From: a virus
Virus record (IMG/VR): IMGVR_UViG_3300020735_000031
Span: 1 to 35,669 of that record
Length of the DNA stretch: 35,669 bases
Reading direction: 5' to 3' (one strand)
In this document: piece by piece, positions 3,212-35,669 of the stretch
How the letters are laid out: every line of letters starts with the position of its first letter
Position numbering within the stretch: position 1 is the first letter of the stretch
The notes under the pieces: model-generated
The model's database searches: none
Told to the model about the DNA's origin: nothing
What the model saw: only the letters and a program-made list of their open reading frames with translations
Translations under genes and position numbers: made by a program

Positions 3212-3398
3212 ATGCACTTGCTGTGCCGGTATTTGTTCCAAGCACATTGGCTGGTGCACATTGGATACCTGAATCTTTAAGTGCTTTTCGGATTATTAGA
3301 TGTTCTTGTTTTAACAACTGCATTTCCTGTTCGAGCCGGAGGACTTTCAATCGGTAGTCTACTTCGTTTACTATCTTCGCTGGTTGTAGTGGTGTCAT
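3210..3398 (-). CDS. Small coiled-coil protein (62 aa), last gene of the minus operon
   Basis: It starts MTPLQPAKIVNEVDYRLKVL behind a good ribosome site (ACGGAG, seven bases before ATG) and continues as a helix with heptad hydrophobics (LRLEQEMQLLKQEHLIIRKAL). The first 122 bases overlap the 3' end of the preceding gene in another frame, which is unusual. The coiled-coil character and ribosome site make this the more convincing protein in the overlap. Function is unknown; a small oligomerising regulator or inhibitor is possible. Confidence 0.6.
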   Translation of the reverse strand: MTPLQPAKIVNEVDYRLKVLRLEQEMQLLKQEHLIIRKALKDSGIQCAPANVLGTNTGTASA

Positions 3399-3555
3399 TT
3401 AATATCTCCGTTTTGCGTTTTAGTGTTGCATATCTATGTAAACTACCATCACTAATAGTCACAATCTCCCATCCATCTTGTGCTTCCACATTGCAAAGCA
3501 TTTCCAACGAATCAAATGTTGGTTCTTTAATATCCATAATGCGTTTATATTTCAT
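3277..3555 (-). CDS. Hypothetical protein (92 aa) with out-of-frame overlap at its 3' end
   Basis: The N-terminal half (MKYKRIMDIKEPTFDSLEML, then QDGWEIVTISDGSLHRYATLKRK) looks like a compact alpha/beta domain. The GWE(I)V...LHRYA.LKRK pattern resembles short phage proteins in which a 'DGWE' strand precedes basic residues. The C-terminal 40 residues are Thr/Ser/Lys-rich and low complexity, and lie inside the overlap with the next gene, so that tail may be a by-product of losing an earlier stop. It is coupled to the upstream gene by an ATGA overlap (3552-3555). Function is not recognised. Confidence 0.6.
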   Translation of the reverse strand: MKYKRIMDIKEPTFDSLEMLCNVEAQDGWEIVTISDGSLHRYATLKRKTEILNDTTTTSEDSKRSRLPIESPPARTGNAVVKTRTSNNPKST

Positions 3556-3812
3556 AATCTGCCTATCAATCCGTGTAATAAAGTGCTGCCTGCACTTGGT
3601 TTGGTAAGCCCAAGTTCAGCCATAACAAGATCATCAACAGTGATACCTTGGCGTGCAAGTTCTAAGTTGTATGCTTCAAATAGATTTTTACGACTTGTAA
3701 AATCATCATCTGCTTCGCCCTCATACGCATCGGGATTAGATAGAAATTCATAGTTCGCCCGTGCCCCTTTGGGCATCGTAGTTGGTGCTTTCTTTTTTAA
3801 TTCTTCAATCAT
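3552..3812 (-). CDS. Hypothetical acidic protein (86 aa)
   Basis: It starts MIEELKKKAPTTMPKGARAN and includes EGEADDDFTSRKNLFEAYN. It is mostly helical and charged, with no membrane segment or known motif. ATGA overlaps at both ends (3809-3812 and 3552-3555) put it firmly in the translationally coupled minus-strand operon. Function is not recognised. Confidence 0.65.
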   Translation of the reverse strand: MIEELKKKAPTTMPKGARANYEFLSNPDAYEGEADDDFTSRKNLFEAYNLELARQGITVDDLVMAELGLTKPSAGSTLLHGLIGRL

Positions 3813-4177
3813 TTTTCTTCCACATAATAATAAGTTTCTTTACCTTGTTTTCTTGCATATCCAATCCTTGCTCGCATAGCTTGCATAGTAATCTGATGTG
3901 CTTCAGCAGCGCGATGGATATTTAAGTAGGTCCCTTGGGGTGTTGTAACAGCCTGGCTCGGTCTACCCATAATAGGTGTTTTAACTGGTTGTTTTTGCTT
4001 AGGAACACGATAGATTTCGTGTGCTATTACATCGCCACTACGATTTAGTATATCGGTTCTGATACTTTTTCGCATCACATATTTCACAAGATCATTATCT
4101 TCATCAATAATCTTGTCTGTGTATGCATTTATTGCTGCTTCGAACTCTGCTTTTTCCATATCGATAAAATCTTTCAT
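3809..4177 (-). CDS. Small protein with C-terminal NUMOD/IENR-like module (122 aa)
   Basis: I chose the ATG at 4177, which overlaps the upstream TGA as ATGA; a TTG four codons earlier (4189) is less likely. The N-terminal part is helical and acidic (DMEKAEFEAAINAYTDKIID). The C-terminal ~55 residues contain RPSQAVTTPQGTYLNIHRAA and then a helix-turn-helix-like stretch (EAHQITMQAMRARI), ending in a Tyr-rich strand. This fits the 'TP.G.Y.s...AA..h.i....' pattern of intron-encoded-nuclease repeat (IENR1/NUMOD1) DNA-binding modules. No nuclease motif is present. It is probably a site-specific DNA-binding protein; the target is unknown. It is the most divergent of three related modules in this operon. 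Confidence 0.65.
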   Translation of the reverse strand: MKDFIDMEKAEFEAAINAYTDKIIDEDNDLVKYVMRKSIRTDILNRSGDVIAHEIYRVPKQKQPVKTPIMGRPSQAVTTPQGTYLNIHRAAEAHQITMQAMRARIGYARKQGKETYYYVEEK

Positions 4178-4407
4178 TTGTAAGTCCAATCAATCCATTT
4201 TGATTGTTTACTATTTAATCGACCAAAGATACAAGCGGTAGTTAGATTGAGTATTCTACTTGCTACAACAGTCGATGGGTATTCGATGCTTAATATTACA
4301 ACGGGACGTGAAGCTGCACCCGGTTTACCGATTTTCGCAGCGGCCATATTTTGGCGTGCAATATCGGTAAATGGTTTGCTGTTTTTACTTCCTTTTGTTC
4401 TGCTCAT
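4174..4407 (-). CDS. NUMOD3 plus NUMOD1-like DNA-binding protein without nuclease (77 aa)
   Basis: The N-terminus (SRTKGSKNSKPFTDIARQNM then AAAKIGKP) resembles the short basic NUMOD3 helix found repeated in homing endonucleases. The rest (RPVVILSIEYPSTVVASRIL, then NLTTACIFGRLNS, ending WIDWTYK) matches a NUMOD1/IENR1-like module: strand, helix, helix-turn-helix, and a final aromatic strand. Together they look like the DNA-recognition tail of a homing endonuclease with the catalytic domain missing. It overlaps its neighbours by ATGA at both ends. It could be a free-standing repressor or the DNA-binding subunit of a split nuclease. Confidence 0.65.
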   Translation of the reverse strand: MSRTKGSKNSKPFTDIARQNMAAAKIGKPGAASRPVVILSIEYPSTVVASRILNLTTACIFGRLNSKQSKWIDWTYK

Positions 4408-4814
4408 TTATAATCCCATCCTTTTAGTCCTCTATCAATATTCGATTTTACTGTATGACGGCACATATTTAATACTCGTCCAGCGTGATTGATTGAGTTG
4501 TAGTTCTTTCCGTGAATAACGCATTCGAACCCAAGTTTGGGTGTGGCTTTGCGCACAATAGGATCATATTCGATTTCGCGTGTTTGATTTAATAGTTCGT
4601 TTCGTTCGCGAATAATCGCTAAGATTTCACTTGCTGATTTACCAATCTTTGGTTCAAATAATACTTCTTCTCCATCATCATACGAGAGTAAGAAACTTCT
4701 TACTCTTTTTTCAGTTATAGGTGCTTGCACGATAGGCGCAGATAGCAACTTATCAAGCGCAGTTAGGTTGTTTTGCATTTCGGCTACTTGTTCTTTCAAT
4801 GTTTTTTGTGTCAT
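4404..4814 (-). CDS. First gene of the minus operon, C-terminal NUMOD1-like module (136 aa)
   Basis: It starts MTQKTLKEQVAEMQNNLTAL behind AAGGAG. An N-terminal coiled helix is followed by an acidic linker and a C-terminal ~47-residue module (FECVIHGKNYNSINHAGRVL, then MCRHTVKSNIDRGLKGWDYK) that matches the NUMOD1/IENR1 DNA-binding pattern. The N-terminal motif M.QK.LKEQV.E also occurs in the small protein at 6291-6551 (MSQKSLKEQVSEK), suggesting a shared peptide module or partner. It is transcribed divergently from 4953. It is probably a DNA-binding regulator; no nuclease residues are seen. Confidence 0.65.
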   Translation of the reverse strand: MTQKTLKEQVAEMQNNLTALDKLLSAPIVQAPITEKRVRSFLLSYDDGEEVLFEPKIGKSASEILAIIRERNELLNQTREIEYDPIVRKATPKLGFECVIHGKNYNSINHAGRVLNMCRHTVKSNIDRGLKGWDYK

Positions 4815-4952: not shown

Positions 4953-5285
4953 ATGTCACATATCCATATGTTCGGAACTGCAAAGAATTTTAATCTGAAT
5001 GGTGCTACTGTAAGCACTGGCGATTGGGTTACACACTTGTGCCCTACTATTCATCAACCAGTTTTTACTCGCGTATGCGATAAGCAGGTGGCACGCGATG
5101 GACTTACTGTTTGGTATTACAGCCCTACGTATGGCGAAGCTTGTGCAGAAGCAGGGTTTATGCAGCCAAAGCATTTTGGACCTATCCGTAAATGCACACA
5201 GGAAGAAATCAATGCGCTGCCATCCGCAATGGTTGCTAAAAGCGATAAGTTTCTTAAAATGTGTTACGAATACGATTTTCAATAA
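4953..5285 (+). CDS. Hypothetical early protein (110 aa)
   Basis: It begins MSHIHMFGTAKNFNLNGATV and contains a DWVTHLCP stretch and several cysteines (THLCP, TRVCDK, GEACAEAG, IRKC, KMCYE). The Cys/His content could bind metal, but spacing does not match a zinc-finger class I can name. It is a single gene between a sigma70-like promoter and a promoter-linked inverted repeat, the usual setting of small early host-takeover proteins. Function is not recognised. Confidence 0.65.
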   Translation: MSHIHMFGTAKNFNLNGATVSTGDWVTHLCPTIHQPVFTRVCDKQVARDGLTVWYYSPTYGEACAEAGFMQPKHFGPIRKCTQEEINALPSAMVAKSDKFLKMCYEYDFQ

Positions 5286-5582: not shown

Positions 5583-5605
5583 AAGGCCCCGAAAGGGGCT
5601 TTCTT
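5583..5605 (+). terminator. Intrinsic terminator with GAAA tetraloop
   Basis: The stem AAGGCCCC (5583-5590) pairs with GGGGCTTT (5595-5602), one G-U pair included, across a GAAA tetraloop. It is followed by TTTCTT. It starts four bases after the membrane-protein stop and lies eight bases before a CTAAATA element. Confidence 0.85.
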
Positions 5606-5612
5606 ATGACCA

Positions 5613-5619
5613 CTAAATA
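5613..5619 (+). promoter_or_regulatory. CTAAATA element before the GIY-YIG gene
   Basis: CACTAAATAT (5611-5620) follows a terminator and ends five bases before the ATG at 5625. No Shine-Dalgarno sequence is present. It is one of several sites where the TAAATA core sits at leaderless-promoter distance from a start codon. Confidence 0.45.
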
Positions 5620-5624
5620 TGTGT

Positions 5625-6128
5625 ATGAATACAATATACGCCTTAGTGGAATCAATATCTCGCACAATGTTCTATGTGGGACAAACACAACGTGATCCAA
5701 CTGTGAGACTTGCAGAACATCGATATCACACACGCACATATAAAGATGGCGATGAAAATAAGTATCTATACGCGTCACAGCTTGACGCTCTATGTATTGA
5801 GTGGGAAATGATCATATTGGCCGAAATAGAGGCGGAAAAAGACGCTTATTCGCACGACGATGTCGAGGATTATTACGTGAACTTGTATAGACGCGAGCCA
5901 TTGCAAAATATGCGTGCAGGTAATCAAGAACCTTGGTTTGGAACTGATTATAAAGATGTTGGTGCTATGCTTGCATCAAAGAAACGATACTTAGATCGAC
6001 TTAGATTCAAACAACCAAAAGTAAAGAAAGAATCAGATGTTACTAAAACTTTATTCAGTTTTGAAAAGCCAAATGAGCGATTTGTATCACCCGGCTTTGA
6101 AGCACTTGCAAAAAGATCACGAAAATAG
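5625..6128 (+). CDS. GIY-YIG family endonuclease-like protein (167 aa)
   Basis: Residues 1-100 show the GIY-YIG layout: a first strand NTIYALVE, a second strand MFYVGQTQRDP, the catalytic Arg in VRLAEHRYH, and the metal-binding Glu in DDVEDYYVNLYRREPLQNMR. The first Tyr motif is 'IYAL' rather than GIY, as in several phage members. The C-terminal ~60 residues are Lys/Arg-rich and may bind DNA, but no NUMOD module is fused. The family cuts DNA in homing, repair or restriction. I use ATG 5625 because it begins the conserved strand; ATG 5619 overlaps the CTAAATA element. Nuclease-less NUMOD proteins encoded 800 bases away on the other strand could be its recognition partners. Confidence 0.8.
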   Translation: MNTIYALVESISRTMFYVGQTQRDPTVRLAEHRYHTRTYKDGDENKYLYASQLDALCIEWEMIILAEIEAEKDAYSHDDVEDYYVNLYRREPLQNMRAGNQEPWFGTDYKDVGAMLASKKRYLDRLRFKQPKVKKESDVTKTLFSFEKPNERFVSPGFEALAKRSRK

Positions 6129-6134
6129 TATAAT
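6106..6134 (+). promoter_or_regulatory. Strong sigma70 promoter for the replication operon leader
   Basis: TTGCAA (6106-6111), exactly 17 bases, then TATAAT (6129-6134). It lies in the 3' end of the GIY-YIG gene, and transcription should begin near 6141. It is the best sigma70 match I found in the window and points at a structured leader of about 135 bases. Confidence 0.8.
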
Positions 6135-6140
6135 AACTTT

Positions 6141-6275
6141 AATAACTGCTAAATACATTTGAGTAGATGAATCCGACCAGATAAATCACTAAATATTTTT
6201 GTTAGGTAGAATTTCTACTAAACACTAAAGCCCTGTTACAGTCCTTGGTCGGATTCGCTGTAACGGGGCTTTTTT
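6141..6275 (+). ncRNA. Structured leader RNA with mutually exclusive or pseudoknotted helices
   Basis: Between the promoter and the terminator are three helices and no supported ORF. Helix A pairs 6169-6179 (GAATCCGACCA) with 6246-6256 (TGGTCGGATTC), 11 perfect pairs. Helix B pairs 6227-6241 with 6258-6272, 15 pairs with one G-U, and is followed by a T-run. Helix C is a local hairpin at 6202-6221. The order is A, B, A', B', so A' lies in the loop of terminator B. A either pseudoknots the terminator or, forming first, blocks it as an antiterminator. CTAAATA cores at 6149-6155 and 6189-6195 also lie within it. It could be an attenuator or riboswitch-like leader for the replication genes, or a free small RNA. 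Confidence 0.65.
6227..6275 (+). terminator. Intrinsic terminator (helix B) in front of the replication operon
   Basis: AAAGCCCTGTTACAG (6227-6241) pairs with CTGTAACGGGGCTTT (6258-6272) and a T-run reaches 6275. Its 16-base loop contains 11 bases complementary to 6169-6179. The next start codon (6291) follows with a GGAG ribosome site at 6278-6281, so read-through is needed to express the operon from the promoter at 6106-6134. Confidence 0.8.
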
Positions 6276-6290
6276 ATGGAGTTTTTACAA

Positions 6291-6551
6291 ATGGATGAGT
6301 TAAATGAAATGGATAGAGAAGTAGCAATATTAAAAGGTGGATATCTGGCAAAGCATATGCCAAAGTTTTGGTATAAGTTACAACATCGAGAGGAAAAAAT
6401 GTCACAAAAATCACTTAAAGAGCAAGTATCTGAAAAGATTTATAAAGACGAACAAAGGAGAAAGTATGGTATCAAGAAACTTACACCAAGTAAGAAAGAC
6501 ATTTATGAGCTATTAACAAGAGTAGAAGAGTTATTAAAGGAACAGAAATGA
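6291..6551 (+). CDS. Small charged protein at the head of the replication operon (86 aa)
   Basis: ATG 6291 follows GGAG at 6278-6281; the ATG at 6276 abuts the terminator T-run and is unlikely. An internal ATG at 6399 has an even better site (GAGAGGAAAAA) and would give a 50-residue MSQKSLKEQVSEKIYKDEQR form, so two products are possible. The protein is helical and rich in Lys and Glu. The MSQKSLKEQVSE stretch repeats the N-terminus of the protein at 4404-4814 (MTQKTLKEQVAE). It overlaps the primase start by four bases (6548-6551). A replication accessory role is inferred from position. Confidence 0.65.
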   Translation: MDELNEMDREVAILKGGYLAKHMPKFWYKLQHREEKMSQKSLKEQVSEKIYKDEQRRKYGIKKLTPSKKDIYELLTRVEELLKEQK

Positions 6552-7696
6552 ATAATGAAGATGTAGATCGATGTTTTAGAAAGTTAAAACAAGTTCCGTA
6601 CAAGGATTTACAACGTGGCAATCTATTGGGACAAGGATGGACAGATGAAGAAGCAGAAGCAGAATTCTGGTGCAGATGGGAAAATGCTCCAGATAATCCA
6701 AAAAATCTTTCAAGAGAAGATTATGAAGAATGGTTCAGAAATGGATGGATTAAAATGAAAGCATCATTTTTTAAAGACGAATGGACAACTTATTCGCCTG
6801 CTGATATGATGATAGATATTTCTTGGAAAGAACTTGCAAGTATATTGACTACTTTTACAAAAGTTTCATCTAAAGAACAAACTCAAATGTTTAATCTATG
6901 GGAGTTCAAGATCGAAAATGATCAAATACATCGTTGCAAAGATGATTGTATTGCTTTACACGGATTGGTTTTGGATTATGATAATAATCTATTATTGAAT
7001 GATGCACTTATACAGTTTAATGGATTTGAATGTGTGATTTATACTACATTCAATCATAGTTCTATTAAAGATAAGTTTCGTATTGTATTACCCTTTAATA
7101 GACCAATGACTATGGACCAGTTTGTATTAAAACGTCAAGCAATGATTGATGCTTTTCCTGGTGCGGATAGAGCAAGTTTCAGTAGATCACAAGCGATTTT
7201 CTTACATAGTGGACCAGACGAGACAAAATCATTTGCTTGTAAGATGGATGGCATCTTTTTAGATCCGGATATTTTCATAGACGAAATAGTAGAACCAGTT
7301 GTCTATAAGGAACGAATACAAAATACAGAAATAGATTCTGAATTTAAACAGGCATATAAAACAGCAATCATTAAATCTCTAATGTCTTGTAAGGGTATTA
7401 GACACTTAAACTCTCTGACAGTAGTCATTATGCTTAAAAGCTGTGATGCTACATTTTCAGATTTTCAACAAATAGCAAAAGTTGCGGGAGCACCAGATTC
7501 TTGCATACAAACTATTAAAAGTCAAACTGAATCTTGGACTGCGATTAGCGATTCGGCATTAATCACTAAAGCAAAACGTGATAAGTTTATTGCGAACTTT
7601 GGAGGCACACCTATTAGTTTTAAAAAGAAAATAGTAACAGCAACAGCAACAGAATTAAAACAAGAAGTAATAAGAAAATGGGGAACGGGAAAATAA
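6548..7696 (+). CDS. Archaeo-eukaryotic-type primase-like replication protein (382 aa)
   Basis: The central region matches the phage/plasmid AEP (PrimPol-like) pattern: an acidic strand motif LVLDYD at residues 140-145, then VIYTTFNHSSIKDKFRIVLP around 163-182, and a later FPGADRASFSRSQAIFLHSG segment around 203-222. These correspond to the metal-binding Asp motif and the 'SH...RFR..LP' region of that family. The first ~90 residues are Trp- and Glu-rich and unassigned. It sits directly upstream of an SF3-type helicase (one base between stop and start), the usual pairing. It probably makes primers at the phage origin. The exact AEP subfamily is uncertain. Confidence 0.65.
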   Translation: MNNEDVDRCFRKLKQVPYKDLQRGNLLGQGWTDEEAEAEFWCRWENAPDNPKNLSREDYEEWFRNGWIKMKASFFKDEWTTYSPADMMIDISWKELASILTTFTKVSSKEQTQMFNLWEFKIENDQIHRCKDDCIALHGLVLDYDNNLLLNDALIQFNGFECVIYTTFNHSSIKDKFRIVLPFNRPMTMDQFVLKRQAMIDAFPGADRASFSRSQAIFLHSGPDETKSFACKMDGIFLDPDIFIDEIVEPVVYKERIQNTEIDSEFKQAYKTAIIKSLMSCKGIRHLNSLTVVIMLKSCDATFSDFQQIAKVAGAPDSCIQTIKSQTESWTAISDSALITKAKRDKFIANFGGTPISFKKKIVTATATELKQEVIRKWGTGK

Positions 7697-9406
7697 ATGA
7701 ATGAAGATACAAATATCAACTTCGATACTTTAATCGTAGGTCAGATAGAAGAAAAAAGAAAATGGCAGAAAGTTTTAGATGATATCGAAACTAGAAAAGC
7801 TTTAGGTAAACCTGATAAGAATGATAAAGGAGCTGCGGCCGAAGCAAAGGTTAATATGCAGCGGGCATTGGATGCTATCACAGAACTTAATAAAGCCCGT
7901 TCTGAAATAACAACAGCAGAAACAAATGAGAAGCAAGCAAGCACACTAGCAGAAGAAAAACTAATCATACAAAAACTAATAAACGATTACAACATCGGTT
8001 ATTTGATTTGCGAAAATCGTTACATCTATTGCAGGGATGTTAGCGAACAAGGAAACAATATCGTTAACCCTATTTTTAATATGATCGAAGCACACAAGTT
8101 TGGACGTATGTTAAACAAAATGGCTGGCAACAGACTAAAACTTGGAACAAGAGTTTTAAATGAAGAACTAACAGATTATTTTCAGGATGTTAGAAAAGAT
8201 TATTCGATGACTACCTGTTCATTTAATGATGCTAAGTGGTGTTCAAAAGAAGTCTACAATAAAGCGAGCATCATAATGAAGTTTTGGGTGCAGCCCAACT
8301 GGGATGAAGCTAAAAACTATGATAAACGATTTGATTTTTTAATGAACTGTATAGGTGGAGGTAAACAGGAGAATATCAATCACTTAGAACAATGGATGGG
8401 ATTTAAATATGTTTATCCAGAGCGAGTATCAAATACACCTAGTTTGGATATCGGTGGTTATCCAGGTGGTAATGGTAAGGGACGATATGAAGAACTCGGT
8501 AAAACTATTTTTACAAACAAATGTGTGAGTGCTGCTACTTTGGATGAACTAACGAAGTTTAACGCCAACTGGGAAATGAGTGTCTTACTTTGCTATGATG
8601 AACCCGAGCATAATGAGCTACCAGAAGGAAAGTTGAAATCAGCAACAGGCAGTGAAGATATGCGAATAGAAAAGAAGGGTATAGATGCTACTATGGTCGA
8701 TAGAAACTATAGTTTCTTGTTTCTTAGTAATAACCCGAATGGTGTTGTTAAACTTGCAGGAACAGGCAGTGCAGGTGAAGATCGTAGATATTCAGTTATG
8801 ACTACAAATCTAGTTATGGTTGACGAGTCTATTAGATTGGGCTTTGCTAAGGATTTAGAAGAAGCAAAAGTATTTGTTAATAGCATAAATGATCTAATAA
8901 AGAATAGAGCAGAAGTAGCAAAATGGCTTGCACATATTATCACTAAACATAATATTTTTAATATCCAAGTATTACATCCATTACACGGACAGGATTACAA
9001 AGCAAGATTTAATGATCAGAAAAGCACACGCGATGTTGCATTCGATAAGATGTTACCTGTATTTTTAAAGAATGAAATACTCCCCTATGAAGTTCTTAAA
9101 GCCTGTGTGATTACATTGAGCAGACAAGAGCACCTAGGTGATAAGACTCTTAAACAGGACTGGAAACGATATTTGGAAAAGAATAAGATTGCATTTGAAT
9201 GTCTAGATGGTGACAATAGACCTTATTTTGATTACGAGTTTGCTGGCAAGAATAGCTTGCGCGTGCAAAAAGTTGTATACACTATTAAGCACACAACTAA
9301 GAATATCTTTGATCTATCAACAATACTGAAGCGAGCACCTACAAATATGAAACTGGCTAAAGAAAGTATGGAAACACTTGATTTATTAGTTTTTGAGGAT
9401 ATTTAA
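7697..9406 (+). CDS. SF3 / D5-like replicative helicase (569 aa)
   Basis: Residues 1-95 form a charged coiled region. The ATPase core shows Walker A GGYPGGNGKG (253-262), Walker B SVLLCYDEP (295-303), a sensor strand LFLSNN (341-346) and an arginine-finger-like EDRRYS (361-366), as in phage and plasmid superfamily 3 helicases (D5 / DUF5906-type). These act as ring helicases that unwind at the origin, often with an AEP primase as here. The last codon overlaps the first copy of the TAAGCACGG repeat, so the origin begins exactly at the end of the gene. A C-terminal ~100-residue region may bind the origin. No DNA polymerase is encoded, so host polymerase is presumably recruited. Confidence 0.85.
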   Translation: MNEDTNINFDTLIVGQIEEKRKWQKVLDDIETRKALGKPDKNDKGAAAEAKVNMQRALDAITELNKARSEITTAETNEKQASTLAEEKLIIQKLINDYNIGYLICENRYIYCRDVSEQGNNIVNPIFNMIEAHKFGRMLNKMAGNRLKLGTRVLNEELTDYFQDVRKDYSMTTCSFNDAKWCSKEVYNKASIIMKFWVQPNWDEAKNYDKRFDFLMNCIGGGKQENINHLEQWMGFKYVYPERVSNTPSLDIGGYPGGNGKGRYEELGKTIFTNKCVSAATLDELTKFNANWEMSVLLCYDEPEHNELPEGKLKSATGSEDMRIEKKGIDATMVDRNYSFLFLSNNPNGVVKLAGTGSAGEDRRYSVMTTNLVMVDESIRLGFAKDLEEAKVFVNSINDLIKNRAEVAKWLAHIITKHNIFNIQVLHPLHGQDYKARFNDQKSTRDVAFDKMLPVFLKNEILPYEVLKACVITLSRQEHLGDKTLKQDWKRYLEKNKIAFECLDGDNRPYFDYEFAGKNSLRVQKVVYTIKHTTKNIFDLSTILKRAPTNMKLAKESMETLDLLVFEDI

Positions 9407-9464
9407 GCACGGTTTAAGCACGGTTGTTTTTGAACCGTGCTTAAATAATGCTTAAAAAATAAGC
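9404..9464. repeat. Left iteron group with 13-bp inverted repeat
   Basis: TAAGCACGG occurs at 9404-9412 and 9415-9423, 11 bases apart (one helical turn), and inverted (CCGTGCTTA) at 9435-9443. Bases 9413-9425 and 9433-9445 form a perfect 13-bp inverted repeat around a seven-base loop. A second small dyad, GCTTA/TAAGC (9450-9464), follows. The same nine-base unit recurs at 9700-9726, which marks these as iterons bracketing the small gene between them. Confidence 0.75.
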
Positions 9465-33567: not shown

Positions 33568-35669
33568 TGAGCACCAGTTTGCAACTTCGTCGCGGCAATG
33601 CAACCGCAGTAACAACCGCAGTAGGCGCAGTAGGCGAACTACTTGTTGATACAACTAACTGGACACTTCACTTACAAGATGGAGTAACGGCAGGTGGACA
33701 CCTAATCGGTGGCGGCAATGCGGTAGCAGGCATCAATAAACAAGTTCAATATAATAATAGTGGTGTGTTTGGTGCATCAAGTCAGTTTACCTATGATAGT
33801 GGAACCAATACTTTAACAGCAGGGACTATTCAGTTAGCAGTAGGACTTGGTGGGCCACTTATCACATCAAATGATGCAAGTAATGATATTATTATTGTTC
33901 CAAATAACAATACTGGTGGACCTGGTTTACAACTATATGGGGCAGCAGGGACTTCGGGTGGTGGCTCCATATCTTTGTTGACTGGCGCCGGAACTGATGC
34001 CAATAGTAGTGGTGGAAATCTTAGTATTGAAGCAGCTGGTGGACGTGGAACCGGAAGTGATGGTTCGATTAATATTAGAACAGTGACTGGTGGACCTGGG
34101 TCAACACCCGGCACTATAGCTATTCAATCATCAAGTTCTATTGATTTAGCACTTGGTGGGCCATTATCTATTAACGTCGATACTGGTTTATCTGGATCAG
34201 TCCTTACATCAGGTGGATCAGGTGCGCCACCTGTTTGGGCAATGCCAACAACTGGCACAGTAACTTCGGTCGGAGTCAATGGAACTGCTGGTCGCATTAC
34301 TTCGGTTGGCAGTCCAGTCACATCAACTGGCACAATAACAGTCGATTTAGCTACAACAGCGGTCACAGCAGGTAGTTATACAAATGCCAATATCACTGTA
34401 GATGCCTATGGGCGTTTAACAAGCGCAGCAAGTGGTTCAGCTGGTGGTGTCACAACATTCAATTCACGCACTGGTGCTGTAACTTTAACATCGGCTGATG
34501 TGACAACAGCACTGGGATTTACTCCAAGAACAGGAACTGTGACATCAGTTGATGTTGCAGTAAACAATGGTATTACTATTAGTGGTAATCCAATCACAAC
34601 TTCGGGCGTTTTAACATTCGGATTGAATGCTATTACTCCATATAGTATTTCAACCACAGATGGTGTCACAGTTGGTGGTGATCTATCTGTTACTGGCAAT
34701 ACGATTATTTCAGGTAACTTAAATGTTTATGGAACTACAACCACACATAGTTCAACTAATACAAGTTATACAAACTCTACTATTTCACTTAACACACCTA
34801 CAACAGGTTGGATTACTTCTGATAGTGGCGCTGATATTGGCTTAATCGAAGATTATTATGACCCAACTGGCAATCCACTTATTGTTACAAGCGGCAATGG
34901 AACTGGAAGTGTTGCTACTTTAAACTTCGTAGGTGGGCCATATCCGGTAGGCGCAGTTATTATTGTTGCAGGTGTTATCCCAAGTGGATTCAATGGCTCG
35001 TATATTGTAACAGCATCAACTTCGACAAGCGTAAGTTATGCAAATACAACAAGTGGCGCAGTCACAACAAGTGGTTCCCTTGGCACAGTTATTCGTCAAA
35101 CAGCATTCGTTACAACAGCCGGCACAAGTGCTGCACATACAGCAACGATTTCCTACAACTTTAGTAGTGGTGTAGCGGTCGCAAATGGCTCAACAGTTAC
35201 TATTATAGGTGTTACTCCTACCGGATATAACGGATCATATGCAGTAAGTGGCGCAACTGCTGGCACATTCCAAGTATCAACATCTGGCACAAACTTAGGA
35301 CCTATCACAGTTCAGGGAACGATTATTGTTAGTAATCGTCATTCATTCTTTGGTAGAGCCGATGATACTGGCGATCTTGAATACTATAAAGTAGGTGCTC
35401 TTACAGGTAATGTATTTGGTGGCATTTACGGAACTATTAAGGCAGGAGCATTTTATGCAAGTCAATCAGCAGGAGTAAATGCAGTTGATATTGGACTTGG
35501 ATCACATATCAGAATCCCACCAAACACAATCTATGATGATACAACCGCAGCAAGTTCGACTGTTGCTTTAGGAACTATTACTAACCACGGTATTATGACA
35601 CTCGATGCTATCAATACTGGCATCACTTACACAGAAGCATCTGCATTATATATTGCTGGCGCAATAGTC
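33567..35669 (+). CDS. Long tail fibre, N-terminal part (continues at the left edge)
   Basis: The ATG overlaps the previous stop (TAATG). The first ~50 residues (MSTSLQLRRGNATAVTTAVG, GELLVDTTNWTLHLQDG, TAGGHL) match the Mtd-N-like attachment domain of phage receptor-binding proteins. Gly/Thr/Ser-rich shaft repeats follow, with NANITVDAYGRLTSAASGSA and FNSRTGAVTLTSADVTTALG, classic fibre motifs, then an intermediate beta region and YTEASALYIAGAIV at the edge. The frame has 701 codons with no stop and ends exactly at a codon boundary, in frame with base 1. Together with 1-2031 it would be a 1377-residue fibre, the largest protein of the phage. Confidence 0.9.
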   Translation, partial: MSTSLQLRRGNATAVTTAVGAVGELLVDTTNWTLHLQDGVTAGGHLIGGGNAVAGINKQVQYNNSGVFGASSQFTYDSGTNTLTAGTIQLAVGLGGPLITSNDASNDIIIVPNNNTGGPGLQLYGAAGTSGGGSISLLTGAGTDANSSGGNLSIEAAGGRGTGSDGSINIRTVTGGPGSTPGTIAIQSSSSIDLALGGPLSINVDTGLSGSVLTSGGSGAPPVWAMPTTGTVTSVGVNGTAGRITSVGSPVTSTGTITVDLATTAVTAGSYTNANITVDAYGRLTSAASGSAGGVTTFNSRTGAVTLTSADVTTALGFTPRTGTVTSVDVAVNNGITISGNPITTSGVLTFGLNAITPYSISTTDGVTVGGDLSVTGNTIISGNLNVYGTTTTHSSTNTSYTNSTISLNTPTTGWITSDSGADIGLIEDYYDPTGNPLIVTSGNGTGSVATLNFVGGPYPVGAVIIVAGVIPSGFNGSYIVTASTSTSVSYANTTSGAVTTSGSLGTVIRQTAFVTTAGTSAAHTATISYNFSSGVAVANGSTVTIIGVTPTGYNGSYAVSGATAGTFQVSTSGTNLGPITVQGTIIVSNRHSFFGRADDTGDLEYYKVGALTGNVFGGIYGTIKAGAFYASQSAGVNAVDIGLGSHIRIPPNTIYDDTTAASSTVALGTITNHGIMTLDAINTGITYTEASALYIAGAIV

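Follow-up and report, generated by a model that had tools for sequence, protein, structure and literature searches.

Between a GIY-YIG nuclease-like gene and a helicase-primase operon, the phage genome studied here carries a predicted leader whose terminator abuts the Shine-Dalgarno sequence of the first operon gene (Table 1). The window, i.e., the whole 35,669-nucleotide stretch of IMG/VR record IMGVR_UViG_3300020735_000031, is approximately the entire genome of a P22-like podovirus, with portal (PF16510), coat (PF11651), and terminase proteins found with Pfam. A contig of the same species, IMGVR_UViG_3300000553_000289, bridges window position 35669 to position 1 with 18 additional bases, indicating a genome of about 35,687 bp that is circularly permuted or terminally redundant. 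The closest cultured relatives, identified through the terminase, are EBPR podovirus 1 and Chlorobiaceae phage CV-1-33, with 48% amino acid identity. Five overlapping minus-strand open reading frames (ORFs) without family matches (3277-4814) resemble a small operon divergent from the plus-strand early genes at 4953. Immediately ahead of the GIY-YIG gene start, at 5584-5604, lies a terminator-like hairpin, GGCCCCGAAAGGGGCTTTCTT, comprising 5586-5599 and flanks, which is a second case of a terminator before a gene. Right after the primase gene, at 9400-9456, a tandem TTTAAGCACGGTT/TAAGCACGGTT is followed by an inverted copy, making two alternative hairpins possible; this repeat is a candidate origin, terminator, or processing site.

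Table 1. Features of the leader and its flanking genes in the window
Feature	Position	Strand	Evidence or remark
GIY-YIG nuclease-like gene, upstream	5619-6128	+	Pfam PF01541, E 7e-5, above cutoff
Promoter-like site TTGCAA-17-TATAAT	6106-6134 (TTGCAA 6106-6111, TATAAT 6129-6134)	+	10/12 matches
Predicted leader or short RNA, about 136 nt	6141-6276	+	MFE -37.8, z -4.6
Mini-ORF ATG AAT CCG ACC AGA TAA (MNPTR), contains A; possible leader peptide	6167-6184	+	Sequence
Element A, GAATCCGACCA, putative antiterminator strand	6169-6179	+	Scans, folds
Small hairpin between A and B	6200-6224	+	MFE and centroid
Terminator stem 5′ arm, B	6227-6241	+	Fold, scan
Element A′, TGGTCGGATTC, in the loop (16 nt) of the terminator; fully complementary to A	6246-6256	+	Scans
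Terminator 3′ arm, B′ (6258-6272), and T-run T6 (6270-6275)	6258-6275	+	Sequence, scan
Shine-Dalgarno GGAG	6278-6281	+	Sequence; 9 nt ahead of ATG at 6291
First operon gene, 86 aa	6291-6551	+	No family match
Replication protein, helicase/primase-like	6548-7696	+	PHROGs 9765, 256, 2135
DUF5906/primase-helicase	7697-9406	+	Pfam PF19263, 1.7e-12; PHROG 1829

All coordinates in the original prediction for this leader agreed with the sequence and with our scans. Its description of the sigma70 promoter as textbook was overstated: the −10 box matches at 6/6 positions and the −35 box at 4/6, and with 14 sites found and 12.3 expected in shuffles, the promoter-like site is statistically indistinguishable from background. 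The 3′ end of the GIY-YIG gene overlaps the −35 region of this site and abuts its −10 box. The 15-bp terminator proposed just before the first replication operon gene was confirmed in the sequence, its stem (6227-6272, with one G·U pair) and T6 being followed by the Shine-Dalgarno sequence. Both the G+C-containing stem and the T-run of an intrinsic terminator are present, upstream of the start codon. The G·U pair preserves the hairpin on the plus strand and becomes a mismatch on the minus strand, and the T-run exists only on the plus strand, indicating that the terminator is directed toward the operon.

Complementarity of the terminator loop to the upstream leader

The predicted perfect complementarity of 11 loop bases to an upstream segment was reproduced by our scan, with A lying upstream of A′ and separated from it by 66 bases. 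The A:A′ helix is lengthened to 12-13 pairs by G6180·U6245, seen in folds, and U6168·G6257, read from the sequence. When the real 16-nt loop was kept and the 86 nt of leader preceding the stem were subjected to dinucleotide-preserving shuffling, complementarity of at least 11 nt arose in 2 of 100,000 shuffles. As a control, loops of terminator-like hairpins on both strands of about 0.9 Mb from the window phage and its relatives were matched to the preceding 135 nt; among these roughly 130 hairpins (99 + 31), 70 of which have loops of at least 10 nt, the next-best complementarity was 7 nt. Inverted repeats of 11 nt at such spacing are not rare per se in the 36-kb window (0-11 in shuffles), and what is improbable is not the repeat itself but its location in the loop of the terminator. 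By our own estimate, the selection of this feature in the original prediction costs perhaps one to two orders of magnitude, which leaves the match still improbable. The A:A′ match is beyond chance.

The perfect 11-bp inverted repeat formed by A and A′ could also be read at the level of DNA, for example as a site bound by a phage repressor or a replication initiator. We consider this very improbable, as 77 bp (7.3 turns) separate the half-sites, one of them lies within the terminator loop, and the genome contains no series of further A copies. A tRNA-like or attachment-site origin of A was rejected, the window having no tRNA gene. The layout is that of a complete promoter-RNA-terminator unit, as would be expected if a regulatory RNA of about 135 nt were made independently, from a promoter of its own to its own terminator; its A′ or A would then target another RNA while the operon is otherwise promoted or reached by read-through. 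However, A and A′ in the same molecule would pair together first, and A-like sites elsewhere in the genome comprise one with a single mismatch (35512-35522) and two-mismatch sites near chance (within two mismatches, 10 hits compared with 4.6 expected, both known ones counted). In addition, no promoter-like site at the 9/12 level lies between the terminator and the 86-aa gene, whose Shine-Dalgarno sequence directly adjoins the terminator, and we regard a free RNA as improbable.

Folding along the transcript and a candidate attenuation mechanism

In prefix folds of the growing transcript, A is free of A′ before A′ emerges, and the 3′ half of A is predicted to be mostly unpaired until A′ is made. 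From RNA end 6253 onward, A:A′ is the minimum-energy fold. At RNA ends 6256-6266 it reaches −30 to −32 kcal/mol, compared with −16 when A′ and B′ are unpaired and −18.7 to −27.3 for a partial terminator; the terminator fold is predicted to be better than A:A′ only from RNA end 6268 and is 5.7 kcal/mol better once complete. RNA polymerase shields about 9-14 nt of nascent RNA, and when the 3′ end is in the T-run (6270-6277), the free RNA should therefore end at about 6261-6268, giving A:A′ the advantage while termination is decided. These dynamics were modeled cotranscriptionally with three states (no pair, A:A′, or terminator) and ViennaRNA ensemble energies, using folding prefactors of 1e3-1e7 per s, elongation at 10-100 nt/s, and covered lengths of 8-14 nt. 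Across all ranges the model gave about 100% A:A′ at 6277, and when A was blocked the terminator formed completely; the outcome flips when A:A′ is weakened by about 6 kcal/mol. The model is restricted to nested folds and leaves partial pseudoknots, NusA, and host factors out of account. By prediction, the prefix folds and the kinetic model together fit the expectation that A:A′ forms earlier than the terminator and competes with it. The sequences, their improbability, and this ranking of predicted stabilities as the transcript grows are what has been shown.

A pseudoknot between A:A′ and the terminator had been suggested as well. With full-length A:A′ and B:B′ we read it as sterically excluded, because only 0-1 nt links A′ to B′, too little to bridge a helix of 12-13 bp. 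A partial pseudoknot is possible, formed by later pairing in the lower half of the terminator stem.

The interpretation that we tentatively prefer, giving it slightly less than an even chance, is that the leader is a kinetic transcription attenuator placed before the helicase-primase operon, in which an antiterminator captures the terminator loop. The transcript would begin at about 6141, or arrive by read-through from the GIY-YIG gene, with A exposed first, partly within the loop of a weak hairpin. As A′ emerged, it would be captured by A in a helix of 12-13 bp and, because A′ is part of the terminator loop, the upper part of the hairpin could then not nucleate before polymerase passes the T-run. 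Formation of A:A′ would thus lead to read-through, with the replication genes on as the default state. A protein, a second RNA, or a ribosome on MNPTR could occupy A, and the 15-bp terminator would then form at once, producing an RNA of roughly 135 nt and turning the operon off. After read-through, a partial pseudoknot of A:A′ and the lower terminator stem may persist just upstream of the ribosome-binding site. Within this scheme we infer promoter use, actual termination, switching, and an occupant of A.

Because the MNPTR mini-ORF lies exactly on A, a ribosome could act as the switch. A more specific version of the kinetic attenuator would accordingly be coupled to translation, with ribosomes on MNPTR covering A and controlling A:A′ formation, and the coincidence of a six-codon ORF (stop included) with A is what recommends it. 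However, 47% of shuffled leaders contain such a mini-ORF by chance, the SD-like GAG of MNPTR is weak and only 3 nt upstream, and MNPTR contains no run of regulatory codons. The leader peptide is indistinguishable from chance, and we see only a slim prospect for translational coupling.

We regard the leader as nonrandom, real, and, in the folding models, bistable, and the kinetic attenuation mechanism, resting on a single sequence, as plausible. The proposal of an attenuator or riboswitch is partly supported, an attenuator-like bistable leader being in keeping with the sequence, the folding, and the position in the operon; riboswitch membership finds no support, with no Rfam match. It is rather doubtful, in our estimation, that the leader is a phage RNA switch in which a long, near-perfect helix grips the loop of the terminator rather than its stem, read-through is the default, and an infection-dependent factor on A shuts off the operon. 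We know of no phage example of a loop-capturing antiterminator switch. If such a switch is at work, the phage would control its replication genes by a compact RNA alone, via loop capture, an attenuation mode that is unusual, and RNA control would be indicated at the helicase-primase operon head in this phage group.

Operon-head leaders in related phages and parallels in known systems

No homologous leader was detected in IMG/VR, in GTDB species genomes, or, by BLASTN, in cultured phages, nor were leader homologs detected via the neighboring proteins; the genome contigs yielded no primase relative. Contigs of the same species (L007/L011 and L024/L081) leave the leader region uncovered. Rfam 15 gave no match at the gathering cutoff in the window, and a permissive search of 6050-6350, accepting hits to E 5, returned RefA9, rli38, and PyrR as the best hits, with scores of roughly half the respective cutoffs or below. 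Matches to the A-A′ pattern in IMG/VR and GTDB genomes were not terminators and look unrelated. A motif, CCCTGTTNCA..GTCCTTKG, shared with a terminator of L009/L010 was found only in that pair, in the near-copies L047/L053, and in chance matches, and is probably a coincidence. The A-B-A′-B′ architecture was absent from the distant relatives scanned, one of which (G001) lacks any visible terminator immediately ahead of its helicase operon.

Five contigs encode a related primase (38-46% identity), and each has its own noncoding stretch at the operon head. Relatives with the same primase carry different leaders, indicating that the exact A-B-A′-B′ design is not conserved in the group. Two of the contigs, both from distant relatives (L005:1139-1285 and L008:3500-3646), have a 147-nt leader between a TATAAT box and the first helicase-primase operon gene, with a folding energy of −69 kcal/mol (z −8.8 and −8.2) and a fold consisting of a hairpin and a multibranch domain closed by 12-13 bp. 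Between the two, the leader is 97-98% identical and the next gene 27-80%. This leader, which has no Rfam or cultured-phage match, is unrelated to that of the window and occupies the same operon position. Another two (L009:4568-4878 and L010:4739-5047) share, in nearly identical form, a moderately folded noncoding stretch that contains two intrinsic terminators and precedes a GIY-YIG-like gene heading the operon, and in L004 the corresponding stretch has no significant fold. RNA leaders thus recur at the operon head in this group, and A-B-A′-B′ was seen once; the recurrence is circumstantial backing for RNA control at this position but not for loop capture specifically.

The absence of conservation support for A:A′ would suit a plain terminator separating the early genes from the replication operon, in a position like that of lambda tR1 and passed by leakiness or with a phage antitermination factor, with A/A′ being a functionless inverted duplication from a replication template switch. 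A large terminator loop can accept inserted sequence, and the hairpin before the GIY-YIG gene indicates that a terminator before a gene recurs in this genome without A:A′. A neutral 11-nt duplicate would, however, be expected to erode, yet it is intact, and the predicted stability and timing of A:A′ match the needs of an antiterminator. We consider the plain terminator unlikely, with appreciable weight nonetheless.

The preferred reading, a kinetic attenuator, has parallels in several known systems. The trp and his leaders and the rep leaders of plasmids pT181 and pIP501 form mutually exclusive folds, with a terminator ahead of the first gene, which in the plasmids is the replication gene. Predicted exclusive folds and a terminator preceding the first gene are likewise features of the window leader; in those systems the antiterminator usually pairs with the terminator stem, whereas loop pairing is predicted here. 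On the minus strand near the leader, no antisense promoter was detected at the 9/12 level. In lambda, where N acts in antitermination, terminator tR1 separates an early gene from the replication genes, a position equivalent to that of the window terminator, although the structure is not shared. The HK022 put RNA, about 70 nt long with a pair of long stem-loops, works on RNA polymerase remotely, allowing passage through terminators (PMC9378689). The upstream part of the window leader, in contrast, folds weakly, with only two short A/U-rich hairpins and a single strand that can pair with the terminator loop, and identity with put was rejected. In guanidine-IV riboswitches (mepA/GGAM-1 motif), a kissing loop or pseudoknot with the terminator hairpin hinders the full stem and favors read-through (PMC7736828, PMC11611296). 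The window terminator hairpin is similarly predicted to pair with upstream RNA via its loop, an analogy of mechanism only. The leader has no match to an Rfam model at gathering score or to E 5 in 6050-6350, on the assumption that the guanidine-IV model is in the Rfam copy used; its near-perfect helix of 12-13 bp is predicted to be ligand independent, and its context is phage replication rather than guanidine export. Not a member of that class, the leader is, by analogy, mechanistically nearest to the guanidine-IV riboswitches.
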